A stretch of 64,000 nt of DNA from Modestobacter sp. VKM Ac-2985 (GTDB lineage: Bacteria; Actinomycetota; Actinomycetes; Mycobacteriales; Geodermatophilaceae). Position 1 is the stretch's first letter, and every line of letters begins with the position of its first letter. Below the pieces are notes generated by a model. That model did not search any database, was not told where the DNA came from, and saw only the letters and a program-made list of their open reading frames with translations. The translations under genes and the position numbers were made by a program. The stretch covers positions 868,001 through 932,000 of the forward strand of contig NZ_JAPVBI010000001.1 of NCBI RefSeq assembly GCF_026967925.1, written 5' to 3'. Below, piece after piece: positions 12,846-16,908 of the stretch.

Positions 12846-13559
12846 TCAGGTGTGCAGGCCGCACTCGACCTTGTTCTTGCCGGCCCAGCGGCCGGCGCGC
12901 GGGTCCTCGCCCGGGGCGACCGGGCGGGTGCAGGGCGCGCAGCCGATGGAGGCGTAGCCGATCTCCGACAGCGGGTTGACCGGCACCTGGTGCTCGGCGA
13001 TGTAGGCGTCCACGTCGTCCTGCGTCCAGGCGGCCAGCGGGTTGACCTTCACCATGCCGCGCTTGGCGTCCCAGTCGACGACCCGGGTGCCCGTCCGGGT
13101 GGCCGACTCGTCGCGGCGGACGCCGGAGCCCCAGGCGGTGAAGCCGGCCAGCGCCTTCGCGAGCGGCTGGACCTTGCGCATCGAGCAACACAGGTCGGGG
13201 TCGCGCTCGTACAGCGCCGGCCCGTGCTCGAGGTCCTGCTCGGCGACGGTGAGCGGCGGCTGGACGTTGTGCAGGGTGATCGGCAGGACGCTGGTGATCC
13301 AGTCACGGGTGCCGATCGTCTCGGCGAAGTGGTAGCCGGTGTCCAGGAAGACCACGTTCACCCCGGGGACGGCGCGGCTGGCCAGGTGCGCCAGCAGCCC
13401 GTCGGCCATCGAGGAGGTGACGGCGAAGGAGTCGCCGAAGGTGTCCCCGGCCCAGCCGAGCACGGCCAGCGCCTGCTCGACCGGGTCGGTGATGCCCTCG
13501 AAGCGCGCATCGGCCTCGGCCGCGAGCTCCAGCGTCGGCGTGGTGATGGCGATCGTCAT
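12846..13559 (-). CDS. cysH: Assimilatory adenylyl-sulfate (APS) reductase
   Basis: A 237-residue CysH. The cysteine pair CCSMRK (124-125) and the second pair GCAPC (207 and 210) are the four ligands of the 4Fe-4S cluster that mark APS-type rather than PAPS-type enzymes; the catalytic cysteine is in the C-terminal KVECGLH (C233). The nucleotide-binding loop SSMADGLLAHL and FLDTGYHFAET are present. It reduces APS to sulfite with thioredoxin. The ATG at 13559 overlaps the stop of the zinc-ribbon gene (ATGA), so translation is coupled. The frame extends further upstream, but that part runs antisense through the operon and is not coding. Confidence 0.95.
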   Translation of the reverse strand: MTIAITTPTLELAAEADARFEGITDPVEQALAVLGWAGDTFGDSFAVTSSMADGLLAHLASRAVPGVNVVFLDTGYHFAETIGTRDWITSVLPITLHNVQPPLTVAEQDLEHGPALYERDPDLCCSMRKVQPLAKALAGFTAWGSGVRRDESATRTGTRVVDWDAKRGMVKVNPLAAWTQDDVDAYIAEHQVPVNPLSEIGYASIGCAPCTRPVAPGEDPRAGRWAGKNKVECGLHT

Positions 13560-13726
13560 GGGTTCCGCACCCCTGTTCCGGTCAGCCGCACGGTGAAGGT
13601 CCGCAGGCAGGCACCGCAGTGCCAGCCGGTCGAGTCGTCGCCGTGCGGGGTGAGGTCCTCTTCGCCGCAGTACGGACAGTGGAACGGTGGCAGCTGCCGC
13701 GTCCTTCCGGACGTGCTGTCTGTCAC
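13556..13726 (-). CDS. Zinc-ribbon miniprotein of the sulfate-assimilation operon
   Basis: A 56-residue protein with two cysteine pairs, FHCPYCGEED and WHCGACLRTF, forming a likely zinc ribbon. GTG at 13726 overlaps the sulfite reductase stop by 4 nt, and its own TGA overlaps the cysH start by 4 nt, so it is tightly coupled on both sides. Small proteins of this type are often found between sulfite reductase and cysH in actinobacteria. The role is unproven; metal or cluster handling, or regulation, would fit. Easily missed because of its size. Confidence 0.8.
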   Translation of the reverse strand: MTDSTSGRTRQLPPFHCPYCGEEDLTPHGDDSTGWHCGACLRTFTVRLTGTGVRNP

Positions 13727-15402
13727 ACCAGCCACTCGTCCTCCGCCCGGGCGACGTAGGCGGCGAACCGCTCGCCGGGCTCGCGACGGTCCAGGTAGCC
13801 GCGGAGCACCCGCTCGCAGTAGTCCGCGGTCTCCTCCTTGGTGATCTTGTGACCCCGGAACTTGCGGCCGAACGAGGCATCGACGCCGAGGTGCCCGCCC
13901 AGGTGGACCTGGAAGCCCTCGACGCTCTCGCCCTCGGCGTTGCGGACGATCATGCCCTTGAAGCCGATGTCGGCGGTCTGGAACCGGGCGCAGCTGTTCG
14001 GGCAGCCGTTGACGTTGATCCCGATCGGCTCGTCGAACTCCGGCAGCCGGCGCTCGAGCTCGGCGTACAGCTCCTGGGCGTGCGCCTTGGTCTCGACGAT
14101 GGCGAGCTTGCAGAACTCCAGGCCGGTGCAGGCCATGGTGCCGCGGCGGAAGGCGCTGGGGCGCACCTGCAGGTCGTGCTCGGCGAGGGCGTCCACCAGC
14201 TCCTCGACGTGGGCGTCCGGGACGTCCAGGATGACCAGCTTCTGCTGGGTCGTCGTCCGGATCCGGCCGCCCTGGGTGCCGTAGTGCTCGGCGAGGTCGG
14301 CGATGCGGGTGAGCAGCGTGCCGCTGATCCGGCCGGTGCGAAGCGCGAAGCCCAGCGCGTTGGCGCCGTCCTTCTGCCTGCTGACCCCGACGTGGTCGCG
14401 TGACTCGTGCTTCGGCGGTGCGGCGGCCGGGCCGTCGGGCAGCTTCGCGTGCAGGTACTCGTCCTCGAGCACCTGGCGGAACTTCTCCGGGCCCCAGTCG
14501 GCCATCAGGAACTTGATCCGGGCGTGGTTGCGCGACCGGCGGTAGCCGTAGTCGCGGAAGACCGCGGTGCACGCCGCCCAGACGTCGGACACCTGGTCGG
14601 GCCGGACGAACACCCCGATCCGCTTGGCGAACATCGGGTTGGTCGACAGGCCGCCACCGACCCACAGGTCGTAGCCCACCTCGCCGGCGGAGTTCACCAC
14701 ACCGTTGAGGGAGACGTCGTCGATCTCGGGCTCGGTGCAGCGGTCGACGCAGCCGGACATCGACGTCTTCCACTTGCGCGGGAGGTTGCTGAACTGCGGG
14801 TCGCCCAGGTACTTCTCGACCGTCGCGGCCAGCACGTCGGAGGCGTCGACGACCTCGTCCTCGAGGACGCCGGCCAGCGGGCAGTTGAGCATCACGCGGG
14901 GGACGTCGCCGCAGGCCTCGGTGGTGGACAGCCCGATCGACTCCAACCGCCGCCAGATCTCCGGCACGTCCTCGATCCGGATCCAGTGCAGCTGGACGTT
15001 CTGCCGGTCGGTGACGTCGGCGACGTCCCGGCCGAACTCGGTGCTGATGCCGCCGATGACCCGGAGCTGCTCGGTGCTCAGCTGCCCGCCGTCGATGCGG
15101 ATCCGCATCATGAAGTACGAGTCCTCGAGCTCCTCGGGCTCCAGCACGGCGGTCTTGCCGCCGGGGATGCCCTGCGCCCGCTGGGTGTACAGGCCCATCC
15201 AGCGCATCCGCCCGCGCAGGTCTCCGGGGTCGATGCCGTCGAAGCCGGTGTGCGCGTAGATGTCCAGGATCCGCTGGCGGACGTCCAGCCCGTCGGAGTC
15301 CTTCTTCATCCGCTCGTTCGGGTTCAGCGGCTCGCGGTAGCCCAGCGCCCACTGCCCCTGTCCACGGACGGGGCGGTTGCTGCTGCGGGTGGGGGTCGAC
15401 AC
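13723..15402 (-). CDS. Ferredoxin-dependent assimilatory sulfite reductase
   Basis: A 559-residue siroheme and 4Fe-4S enzyme of the NirA/Sir type. The cluster-ligand cysteines sit in MACTGLEFCKLA and NVNGCPNSCARF, and the siroheme-binding Arg-rich segments (RQNVQLHW, RTTTQQKL) are in place; an internal duplication is evident. It reduces sulfite to sulfide with six electrons, next step after CysH. GTG at 15402 has AGAGGAG 10 nt upstream, better than the in-frame start at 15429. The short leader ORF ends 1 nt before this start. Operon order is sulfite reductase, zinc ribbon, cysH, dehydratase. Confidence 0.95.
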   Translation of the reverse strand: MSTPTRSSNRPVRGQGQWALGYREPLNPNERMKKDSDGLDVRQRILDIYAHTGFDGIDPGDLRGRMRWMGLYTQRAQGIPGGKTAVLEPEELEDSYFMMRIRIDGGQLSTEQLRVIGGISTEFGRDVADVTDRQNVQLHWIRIEDVPEIWRRLESIGLSTTEACGDVPRVMLNCPLAGVLEDEVVDASDVLAATVEKYLGDPQFSNLPRKWKTSMSGCVDRCTEPEIDDVSLNGVVNSAGEVGYDLWVGGGLSTNPMFAKRIGVFVRPDQVSDVWAACTAVFRDYGYRRSRNHARIKFLMADWGPEKFRQVLEDEYLHAKLPDGPAAAPPKHESRDHVGVSRQKDGANALGFALRTGRISGTLLTRIADLAEHYGTQGGRIRTTTQQKLVILDVPDAHVEELVDALAEHDLQVRPSAFRRGTMACTGLEFCKLAIVETKAHAQELYAELERRLPEFDEPIGINVNGCPNSCARFQTADIGFKGMIVRNAEGESVEGFQVHLGGHLGVDASFGRKFRGHKITKEETADYCERVLRGYLDRREPGERFAAYVARAEDEWLV

Positions 15403-15403
15403 G

Positions 15404-15514
15404 TCAGTCGTTCTCCTCTGCGCCGGCACGGGAGCGTGCGCGACGCGGCCGGGTGTGGGTGCAGCAGGGAGGCTGCGGGGGAGCGGTGGCCGTGGTCAGC
15501 GCGCGGCGCGACAC
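15404..15514 (-). CDS. Candidate Cys-Cys leader peptide (uORF) of the sulfate-assimilation operon
   Basis: A 36-codon frame starts with GTG at 15514 and ends with TGA at 15404, one base before the sulfite reductase start. It reads ...APPQPPCCTHTRPRR...GAEEND, with two adjacent TGC codons at 15461-15466 preceded by a Pro-rich stretch. The Shine-Dalgarno of the sulfite reductase (AGAGGAG) lies inside its last codons. Polycysteine leader ORFs that attenuate sulfate-assimilation operons are known in mycobacteria; the same logic would apply here. An in-frame GTG at 15598 could give a longer version. In GC-rich DNA such a frame can occur by chance, so this is a hypothesis. Confidence 0.4.
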   Translation of the reverse strand: MSRRALTTATAPPQPPCCTHTRPRRARSRAGAEEND

Positions 15515-15634
15515 GCGGCGCTGGAGACCCGCGCCAGATCGACGTGCAGGCGCTCCACGAGGAGGGCGCCGCAGTCCGTCACGGTTCGATCGTGCCACAC
15601 GCGGCCGACTCGTGGACCGGAACGGCGGCAGCGG

Positions 15635-16117
15635 TCACTCCGCGGCCGGGACGCCGAAGGAGCGCCAAGCGCTCTCCAGCTCGATCATCTCGGCGACCGA
15701 CGGCGGCATCGTGCCGCCGACGACGTCGGCGAGCGTCACGTTCTCCAGCACCCGTCGGTAGGCCTCCCGGGCCGCCACCCAGACCGAGGCGAGCGGCTCG
15801 GCCGCGCCCGGGTATTCGACGTCCTCGGGGCGCTGCCCGTGCACCTCGGCGAGGAACCCCTGCTCGACCCGCATGACCCGGGCGATGGAGATCTCCGACG
15901 GTGGCATCGCCAGGCGGTAGCCGCCCTCCCGGCCGCGCTGGCTGGTCACCAGCCGGGCGTGCTGCAGGTCGCCGAGGATGGCCTGCAGGAAGCGGGCCGG
16001 GATCCCCTGCGCCTGGGCGATCCGCTCGGAGGTGAGCGAGTCGGGCGCCACGGCGGCCAGTTCCACAGCGGCGCGGACGGCGTAGTCGACCCGGGCAGAG
16101 ATGCGCACGAGGGACAT
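15635..16117 (-). CDS. Rrf2-family transcriptional regulator (CymR-like)
   Basis: A 160-residue Rrf2 protein. An N-terminal winged helix (MSLVRISARVDYAVRAAVELA, then IPARFLQAILGDLQHARLVTSQRGREGGYRLA) is followed by a dimerisation helix. It contains no cysteine at all, so it cannot carry the Fe-S cluster of IscR or NsrR and resembles apo-type CymR, which controls sulfur metabolism in Firmicutes. It lies 232 nt upstream of the sulfite reductase in the same direction, making it a candidate regulator of that operon. Its start is only 26 bp from the divergent Nudix-fusion gene. Confidence 0.88.
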   Translation of the reverse strand: MSLVRISARVDYAVRAAVELAAVAPDSLTSERIAQAQGIPARFLQAILGDLQHARLVTSQRGREGGYRLAMPPSEISIARVMRVEQGFLAEVHGQRPEDVEYPGAAEPLASVWVAAREAYRRVLENVTLADVVGGTMPPSVAEMIELESAWRSFGVPAAE

Positions 16118-16143
16118 CCTGCCGTGTCTGGGACGCTGCCCCC

Positions 16144-16908
16144 GTGTTCCAGCTGCGGTTCACCACCTTGGTGGAGGCACCCCTGACCGTTGCCTTCGAC
16201 GTGGCCCGGTCCCTGGGCCGGCCGTGGCCGGCCCCGCTGCAGGAGGTCGTCGCCGAGCGGCCCTGGCGCGACGTCCAGGTGGCGGCCCCGGGCAGCGGCT
16301 GGCGGACCCTGGTCCACACCCGTTCCTTCACCGCCACCGCAGCCGGCACGCTGGTGACCGATCAGGTCGACGCGGAGGCGGCGCTGCCGGGCTGGTTGGG
16401 CGTCCTGGCCGACCGGGCGGTGCTGCGGCGTCGCGTCCTCCGGTCGATGCAGGCCCACCTGGACGCGTACGCGGCCGCGGCCGCGCAGCGGGCGCAGGAG
16501 GTGACCCAGGTGGTCGGGGCAGCGTTGGTCGACGACCGGCAGCGGGTGCTGGTGGCCCAGCGGGGTTCGGGACCGCTGGCCGGGCTGTGGGAGTTCCCCG
16601 GCGGGAAGGTCGAACGGGGAGAGCCCGAGCTGTCGGCGCTGGTCCGGGAGTGCCGGGAGGAGCTCGGCGTCGGGATCGCGCCTCGCTCGTTCCTCGGGGA
16701 GGTGCCACTGGACGGCGTGGTCGCCGGTGGCGTGCCCGGCACCTCGACCCTGCGCGTCTGGTGGGGCCGGATCGCCGCGGGTGAGCTGGTCGCCCACGAG
16801 CACAGCGAGCTGCGCTGGCTGGGACCCGATGAGCTGGAGGAGCTCGCCTGGATCCCCGCCGACCGCCCGCTCCTCCCCGCCGTGCGCGCGCTCCTCGCCG
16901 GCCTCTGA
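16144..16908 (+). CDS. SRPBCC-Nudix hydrolase fusion
   Basis: A 254-residue two-domain protein. Residues 1-115 look like an SRPBCC/START-type ligand-binding domain (FQLRFTTLVEAPLTVAFDVARSLG, then PGSGWRTLVHTRSF). Residues 121-254 are a MutT-like Nudix hydrolase with an intact Nudix box (153-176; G-x5-E-x7-REC-x-EE-x-G-V). The Nudix part resembles 8-oxo-dGTP pyrophosphatases with the PLAGLWEFPGGK lead-in. The frame is continuous with a short Ala-rich linker, so the fusion is real rather than a frameshift artefact. GTG at 16144 is used; there is little room for a leader. Function of the first domain is unknown. Confidence 0.85.
   Translation: MFQLRFTTLVEAPLTVAFDVARSLGRPWPAPLQEVVAERPWRDVQVAAPGSGWRTLVHTRSFTATAAGTLVTDQVDAEAALPGWLGVLADRAVLRRRVLRSMQAHLDAYAAAAAQRAQEVTQVVGAALVDDRQRVLVAQRGSGPLAGLWEFPGGKVERGEPELSALVRECREELGVGIAPRSFLGEVPLDGVVAGGVPGTSTLRVWWGRIAAGELVAHEHSELRWLGPDELEELAWIPADRPLLPAVRALLAGL

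Follow-up and report, generated by a model that had tools for sequence, protein, structure and literature searches.

How might a Modestobacter cell match the expression of a gene for sulfite reduction to its supply of cysteine, and which, if any, of the short open reading frames (ORFs) in front of the gene takes part? The gene in question, sir, lies at positions 13723–15402 on the minus strand of the window (the whole 64 000-nucleotide stretch that was analysed). It starts with a GTG at 15402, and encodes a nitrite/sulfite reductase family protein of 559 amino acids (PF01077, PF03460), whose closest relatives are from Modestobacter strains (a comparison that may omit records of the window's own genome). 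The best NCBIfam model for the protein is a ferredoxin-nitrite reductase (NF007125), at 348.7 bits and below its cut-off of 594; a role as sulfite reductase is suggested by the adjacent cysH, contained in the downstream ORF (12846–13880, minus strand), which scores 246.4 bits with the APS/PAPS reductase model NF002537 (cut-off 154). A Shine–Dalgarno sequence, GAGGAG, can be read in front of sir at 15413–15418 (minus strand). Further upstream on the same strand is a gene for an Rrf2-family regulator (15635–16117; PF02082) that scores above the cut-off of TIGR00738, though at 60.5 bits it is well below that of the CymR model (195); it could provide a transcriptional layer of control on the sir operon.

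The earlier note had drawn attention to a minus-strand frame at 15404–15514, running through PPQPPCCTHT to EEND, as an attenuating leader: two Cys codons, following a Pro-rich stretch that might itself slow ribosomes, were supposed to cause stalling beside the sir Shine–Dalgarno sequence. The frame, its codons and its spacing are real (its TGA, at 15406–15404, is followed by a single base and then by the GTG of sir), and GAGGAG is indeed inside its final codons. By the note's own account the idea would fall if closely related genomes lacked the Cys codons, and relatives do not keep them. In a comparison across the family (112 genomes searched, 105 with a match and 103 used, 22 of them from the genus itself; G034 and G096 had no readable sir start), a stop one base before sir was found in 21 of 103 upstream regions, and only two of these 21 loci have the Cys pair in the frame concerned: the window's own genome and a congener (L016) with a 93% identical sir. 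(In one further locus, L090, a Cys pair occurs in a different frame, which stops 4 bases past the sir start.) The residues of the frame vary even within the genus, and its TGC TGC (15466–15461) contains GCTGC (15465–15461), the 3′ arm of a hairpin, hairpin II, to which we return below. On this lack of conservation we reject the frame as a leader; we judge it to be a non-functional ORF, most likely incidental, and give virtually no credence to attenuation by its Cys codons, while the suggestion about the Pro-rich stretch is unsupported. The notion of a cysteine-linked leader does hold, but for a different ORF.

That ORF overlaps the rejected frame on the same strand in another reading frame (15496–15582); the earlier note had the kind of element right and the wrong ORF. 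It has a GTG start, 28 codons (MTDCGALLVERLHVDLARVSSAACRAAR) and a TGA stop, and ends 93 nt before sir; it scores 33.2 bits (cut-off 27) with NF042934, and lies upstream of a sulfur-metabolism gene, the further feature that we looked for in a member of that family. A leader with an HxDL core precedes sir in all 103 family loci, and in 102 of them it fits a stricter rule, H-x-D-[LYQ]-x7-C, the constant features being H-x-D-L and one Cys 11 residues past the H; the distance to sir is 90–111 nt in 91 of the 103, and an SD-like tetramer is present ahead of sir in every one. Beyond the family, 118 of 127 genomes of the order gave a match, and sir upstream regions could be read in 87 (the other 31 were weak hits or were not retrieved). 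The strict motif was found in 50 of these 87, compared with 0.0 in letter shuffles and, on the reverse complement, 11 of 87 order loci and two of 103 family loci; the leader was absent from the sir upstream regions of all ten loci of one family in the order set, f4. Across the class, 122 of 196 genomes contained a match above the cut-off, as did none of 14 control genomes, and 30 loci chosen by protein HMM all had a leader (five of them found in a later pass). A search of Rfam with positions 15000–16200 of the window came back empty even at E values of up to 1, and in five loci nothing reached the gathering score. The leader family is already known to curators, NF042934 being a cis_reg_atten model called 'putative leader peptide'; the search output gives the name only, and the codon choice and RNA segments considered below are outside the reach of any protein model.

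Among the closest known systems are the polycysteine leaderless attenuators of mycobacteria, represented by NF042936 (Ms4527A). The window leader has its core and its place before sir in common with them, and may also be leaderless, to judge from a -10-like box, but behind its HxDL there is a single Cys where those leaders have a run, and it scores only 23.2 bits with NF042936 (cut-off 45). A leader (L282, LVARRHIDLKRVCSCCCCCLP) from order family f7, which we call mycobacterial because of the model match, scores 46.8 bits with NF042936 and 26.9, just below the cut-off, with NF042934, which makes the polycysteine and single-Cys leaders look like one family; a core of LVARRHxDLxR is common to the window leader and the f7 polycysteine leaders in front of sir. 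The kinship with mycobacterial polycysteine leaders that had been suggested for the Cys-Cys frame holds for the conserved leader in the other frame.

Published accounts provide several points of comparison. Cys-rich uORFs were reported in mycobacteria (Shell 2015; PMC4633059), and a later paper (PMC13236596) mentions Cys-responsive translation attenuation in Mycobacterium smegmatis, citing Canestrari et al. (2020), who are also cited in PMC9094748 and PMC7790235. Cys leader peptides lacking obvious terminators were predicted before actinobacterial cys operons by Seliverstov et al. (2005; PMC1262725), but those set out in the relevant part of that paper, for Mycobacterium, P. acnes and B. longum, carry several successive Cys codons close to the stop, and the single-Cys form is not among them. 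As summarized in PMC8632094, the uORFC-8-2 attenuator of cysS in Rhodobacterales is likewise a uORF with Cys codons before a cysteine-related gene, but it has two tandem Cys codons, mainly UGC, and an intrinsic terminator with a U run, whereas the window leader has one UGU and no terminator that we could find. A reannotation of Streptomyces lividans lists eight leader peptides, including one upstream of metN, leaderless and with three Cys residues, that is read there as methionine-dependent (PMC8079986). No paper on a single-UGU HxDL leader was among the best-ranked matches of our literature search, which covered few subscription journals and so is not proof that the subject is unpublished; nor did those matches show the single-UGU rule, the division of selection between peptide and RNA, or the link from single-Cys to polycysteine leaders.

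What sets the conserved Cys apart is its codon. All 99 family leaders in the codon tables (from which, as from the fold tables, L105, L107, L108 and L109 were excluded) have Cys at H+11, and in all 99 it is coded by TGT (in the window, codon 24, 15511–15513 on the minus strand). The same codon is used at this position in 44 of the 50 order leaders found before sir outside the family, the six TGC exceptions all belonging to family f13 (among L250–L270, with UGC in six of nine and TGT in three), and in all 30 class loci (25 + 5); our tally has it under 22 different family labels within the class. It also occurs at H+11 in two further leaders of the window's own genome, before a TauE-type and a metN-like gene. 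Against this, the sir genes of 30 family loci have 295 TGC to one TGT, seven ORFs of the window have 21 to five, and the other Cys of the family leaders (codon 4, present in 25 of 99) is coded by TGC in 24 and TGT in one. The background preference for UGC is weaker outside sir genes, as in the window ORFs just given and in the longest open frames taken from the 30 class loci (136 TGC, 40 TGT). Among the other Cys codons of f7 order leaders, TGC and TGT number 13 and 10. In 25 class leaders, where H+11 is always TGT, the other Cys codons are TGC 45 times and TGT 12 times (Fisher p 2e-12, uncorrected for relatedness). UGU is decoded by wobble, by a single tRNA-Cys(GCA).

Is it then the peptide, the codon or the RNA that is selected? 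Among the family leaders, pN/pS is 0.17 for codons 9–16 and 0.33 for codons 8–20, but 2.1 for codons 25–28, the last figure reflecting retention of NNG-CGC-TGA while residues change: in the 92 loci counted (L099–L109 being excluded), the third base of the penultimate codon is G in 90 although the residue may be A, S, Q, P, L, V or E, and the last codon is CGC in 91. From these values and the codon counts, selection looks to be split, acting on the HxDL part as peptide, on UGU as codon and on the leader tail as RNA. Conservation of peptide together with a fixed spacing to the stall codon is a hallmark of peptides that act in the ribosomal tunnel, and both are seen here (the low pN/pS of codons 9–16, and the constant 11 residues from H to Cys across families). 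The leader might accordingly be an arrest peptide, in which HxDL in the exit tunnel brings about arrest near the Cys in direct response to cysteine or a sulfur metabolite, with no shortage of tRNA. We regard this as unlikely, since a preference for UGU over UGC at one particular Cys would not be expected if the residue alone mattered; the choice of codon at H+11 points instead to decoding.

Translation of the leader may begin at the very 5′ end of the message. A -10-like box, TGTGGCACGAT (15589–15599, minus strand), ends 6 nt before the leader start, and a pattern TRTG-N1-2-A[CG]NNT ends 6 nt (55 loci) or 7 nt (44 loci) before it in 99 of the 103 family loci, compared with 0.3% of shuffles (a comparison that is not independent, as the pattern was read off the same sequences); a generic sigma-70 scan found nothing. 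SD-like tetramers are near the leader start in just 30 of 103 loci. The position of the promoter-like box suggests that the transcript is leaderless, beginning at the leader's own GTG at 15582.

Several segments of the leader and the following RNA are constant or nearly so (two alignments were used, A1 with 68 sequences and A2 with the 22 of the genus itself; L091, L098 and L099–L109 are in neither). A CAGCGC segment, P1 (codons 20–22; 15518–15523, minus strand), invariant in 68/68 and 22/22, forms the 5′ arm of hairpin I, the 3′ arm being P2, GCGCTG, in the last codons and stop (15497–15502); the two are complementary and invariant in all 68 A1 sequences. P1 is also complementary to the ribosome-binding site (RBS) region of sir. 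Hairpin II (15461–15476) has arms GCAGC (15476–15472) and GCTGC (15465–15461), with all five pairs present in the 22 sequences of the genus, while in the other 68 one pair changes from A-U to G-C in nine and is unpaired in four. Hairpin III has its base at 15420–15446, where GCGTC (15446–15442) faces GGCGC (15424–15420) and abuts the Shine–Dalgarno sequence; within the genus each pair is unchanged in 18 to 22 of 22 sequences, and in other genera four core pairs are present and invariant in 67–68 of 68, the fifth being unpaired in 33. Because hairpins I and III hardly vary they give no evidence from covariation. Over the 17 pairs tested, 11 cells change on both sides, compared with 3.3 in shuffles (none of 500 reached 11), but these fall in only three of the 17 pairs, a number reached by 138 of 500 shuffles. 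Alternative pairings P4:P5 and P4:P6 were rejected, having all six pairs in only 34 and 24 of 68 sequences, respectively; P2:P5 are complementary in 68/68, again hardly varying. The Cys codon is in a hairpin loop in 30 of 99 family leaders and variably placed elsewhere, so this too was discarded as a general feature.

These observations bear on whether control would be exerted on transcription. No intrinsic terminator was found in this stretch of the window, and the longest T run in 101 intergenic regions is 2 nt; the terminator with a U run that marks a trp-type transcription attenuator is thus not seen. Termination by Rho between leader and sir, a possibility raised for mycobacterial cys leaders by Seliverstov et al. 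(2005; PMC1262725), would need no such site and would suit the base composition (C 0.50 and G 0.31 over the 101 regions, 0.56 and 0.25 in the window's own). We nevertheless think it improbable, because the conserved complementary segments and the invariant GCGC near the RBS fit translational control better, and because a ribosome stalled upstream would expose the C-rich RNA rather than cover it.

On balance we think it rather probable that a ribosome stalled at UGU, awaiting Cys-tRNA, keeps open a stretch of mRNA that otherwise hinders the RBS of sir. On a message that would begin at 15582, ribosomes would translate the 28-residue leader, in which LVARxHxDL is retained as peptide and the constant Cys at H+11 is coded by UGU. 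When Cys-tRNA was scarce, a ribosome would wait with UGU in its A site, covering the Ser-Ser-Ala codons that contain P1 and so breaking hairpin I; P1, which could otherwise pair with GGCGC and the Shine–Dalgarno region before sir, would be taken away (a step to which folding lends weak support). The RBS would then be more open, and sulfite reductase would be made, probably with the product of the downstream cysH. With ample cysteine, the ribosome would run on to the stop codon, P1 would be freed and the RBS would be more closed. In mycobacteria, Canestrari et al. are reported to have put forward the idea that stalled ribosomes block structures that sequester the RBS. A simpler view, that the leader senses nothing and, through coupling or reinitiation, merely supplies sir with ribosomes, would be in keeping with the common strand and fairly fixed spacing of the two ORFs, but about 100 nt is a wide gap for reinitiation, and conservation of UGU and HxDL would be left without a reason; we consider it most improbable.

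Folding calculations in which the nucleotides under a ribosome were masked lend weak support to this model of RBS opening, the effect being small. In 99 sequences, opening of the RBS was dearer by 0.68 ± 0.14 kcal/mol with the ribosome past the Cys codon than with it at that codon or one codon before, compared with 0.13 ± 0.10 for synonymous leaders and 0.14 ± 0.09 for shuffled intergenic regions (values whose significance is overstated, as the sequences are related), and the effect was reversed (below -0.5) in 15% of the 99. A scan of mask positions over every second sequence (50 of the 99) gave the lowest costs when the A site was at Cys (11.54) or one codon ahead of it (11.43), compared with 11.99 when there was no ribosome. 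For the window's own sequence, the costs were 15.0 one codon before UGU, 16.9 at UGU and 16.9–17.1 after it, so that the difference rests on one position, only the codon before UGU being cheaper. An initial mask test, with another RBS window and 101 sequences (L108 and L109 excluded), gave a weaker result: moving the ribosome from the stop to Cys made the Shine–Dalgarno sequence cheaper to open in 31 and dearer in 15. Pairing of P1 with the RBS was predicted at -12.6 kcal/mol, compared with -10.7 for synonymous versions, but two other leader segments were likewise better, so that P1 is the best partner only marginally; and the window's own leader shows no folding advantage over its shuffles (z -0.29).

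How could one codon suffice, when mycobacterial leaders have a whole tract? It is conceivable, though we offer this tentatively, that the leader is a single-codon sensor: HxDL in the tunnel would prime the ribosome, so that the wobble-read UGU at +11 becomes rate-limiting when Cys-tRNA falls, UGU being kept for its slow decoding, and mycobacterial polycysteine tracts would be a derived amplification of an ancestral one-codon sensor. If this were true, the polycysteine leaders would be one branch of an actinobacterial family of cysteine-sensing leaders that uses a single, synonymously fixed codon; there would be a way to learn how the ribosome reads amino-acid supply from one codon; and the generic annotation 'putative leader peptide' would gain a testable mechanism.

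The leader is not confined to sir. Three matches to NF042934 above the cut-off are present in the window's own genome. Apart from that before sir, one (L002, 1489–1620, minus strand; G000:C1 at about 1031500) contains FLVSRLHVDLLRVSTAVCLGR, has UGU, and is followed 90 nt later by a PF01925 (TauE/SafE) gene, and the other (L003, 1414–1560, plus strand) contains SLTRRRAIDLMRLAGTLCR, also has UGU, and lies 108 nt before a metN-like gene, whose product has an ABC ATPase and a NIL domain and MetN as its best model, below the cut-off. A group of cysteine genes sensed by the ribosome has been proposed for mycobacteria; the leader shared by the sir, TauE-type and metN-like genes indicates that these may form one such group. 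The genes that follow ten of the leaders in the 30 class loci (taken as the longest following ORF) were for rhodanese (three), DUF4395 proteins (two) and, once each, a sulfatase, a luciferase-like monooxygenase, a sulfite/nitrite reductase, an SDF symporter and a flavin reductase. One sub-group of leaders (L298, L304, L306 and others) has an RRAVDLCRVA core, with Cys at +4 (mostly UGC), often at +9, and at +11 (UGU), and rhodanese or DUF4395 genes came next in all five such loci scanned. One genome of family f29 (G393) has as many as 11 matches at E ≤ 1e-4, hinting at many leader-bearing genes.
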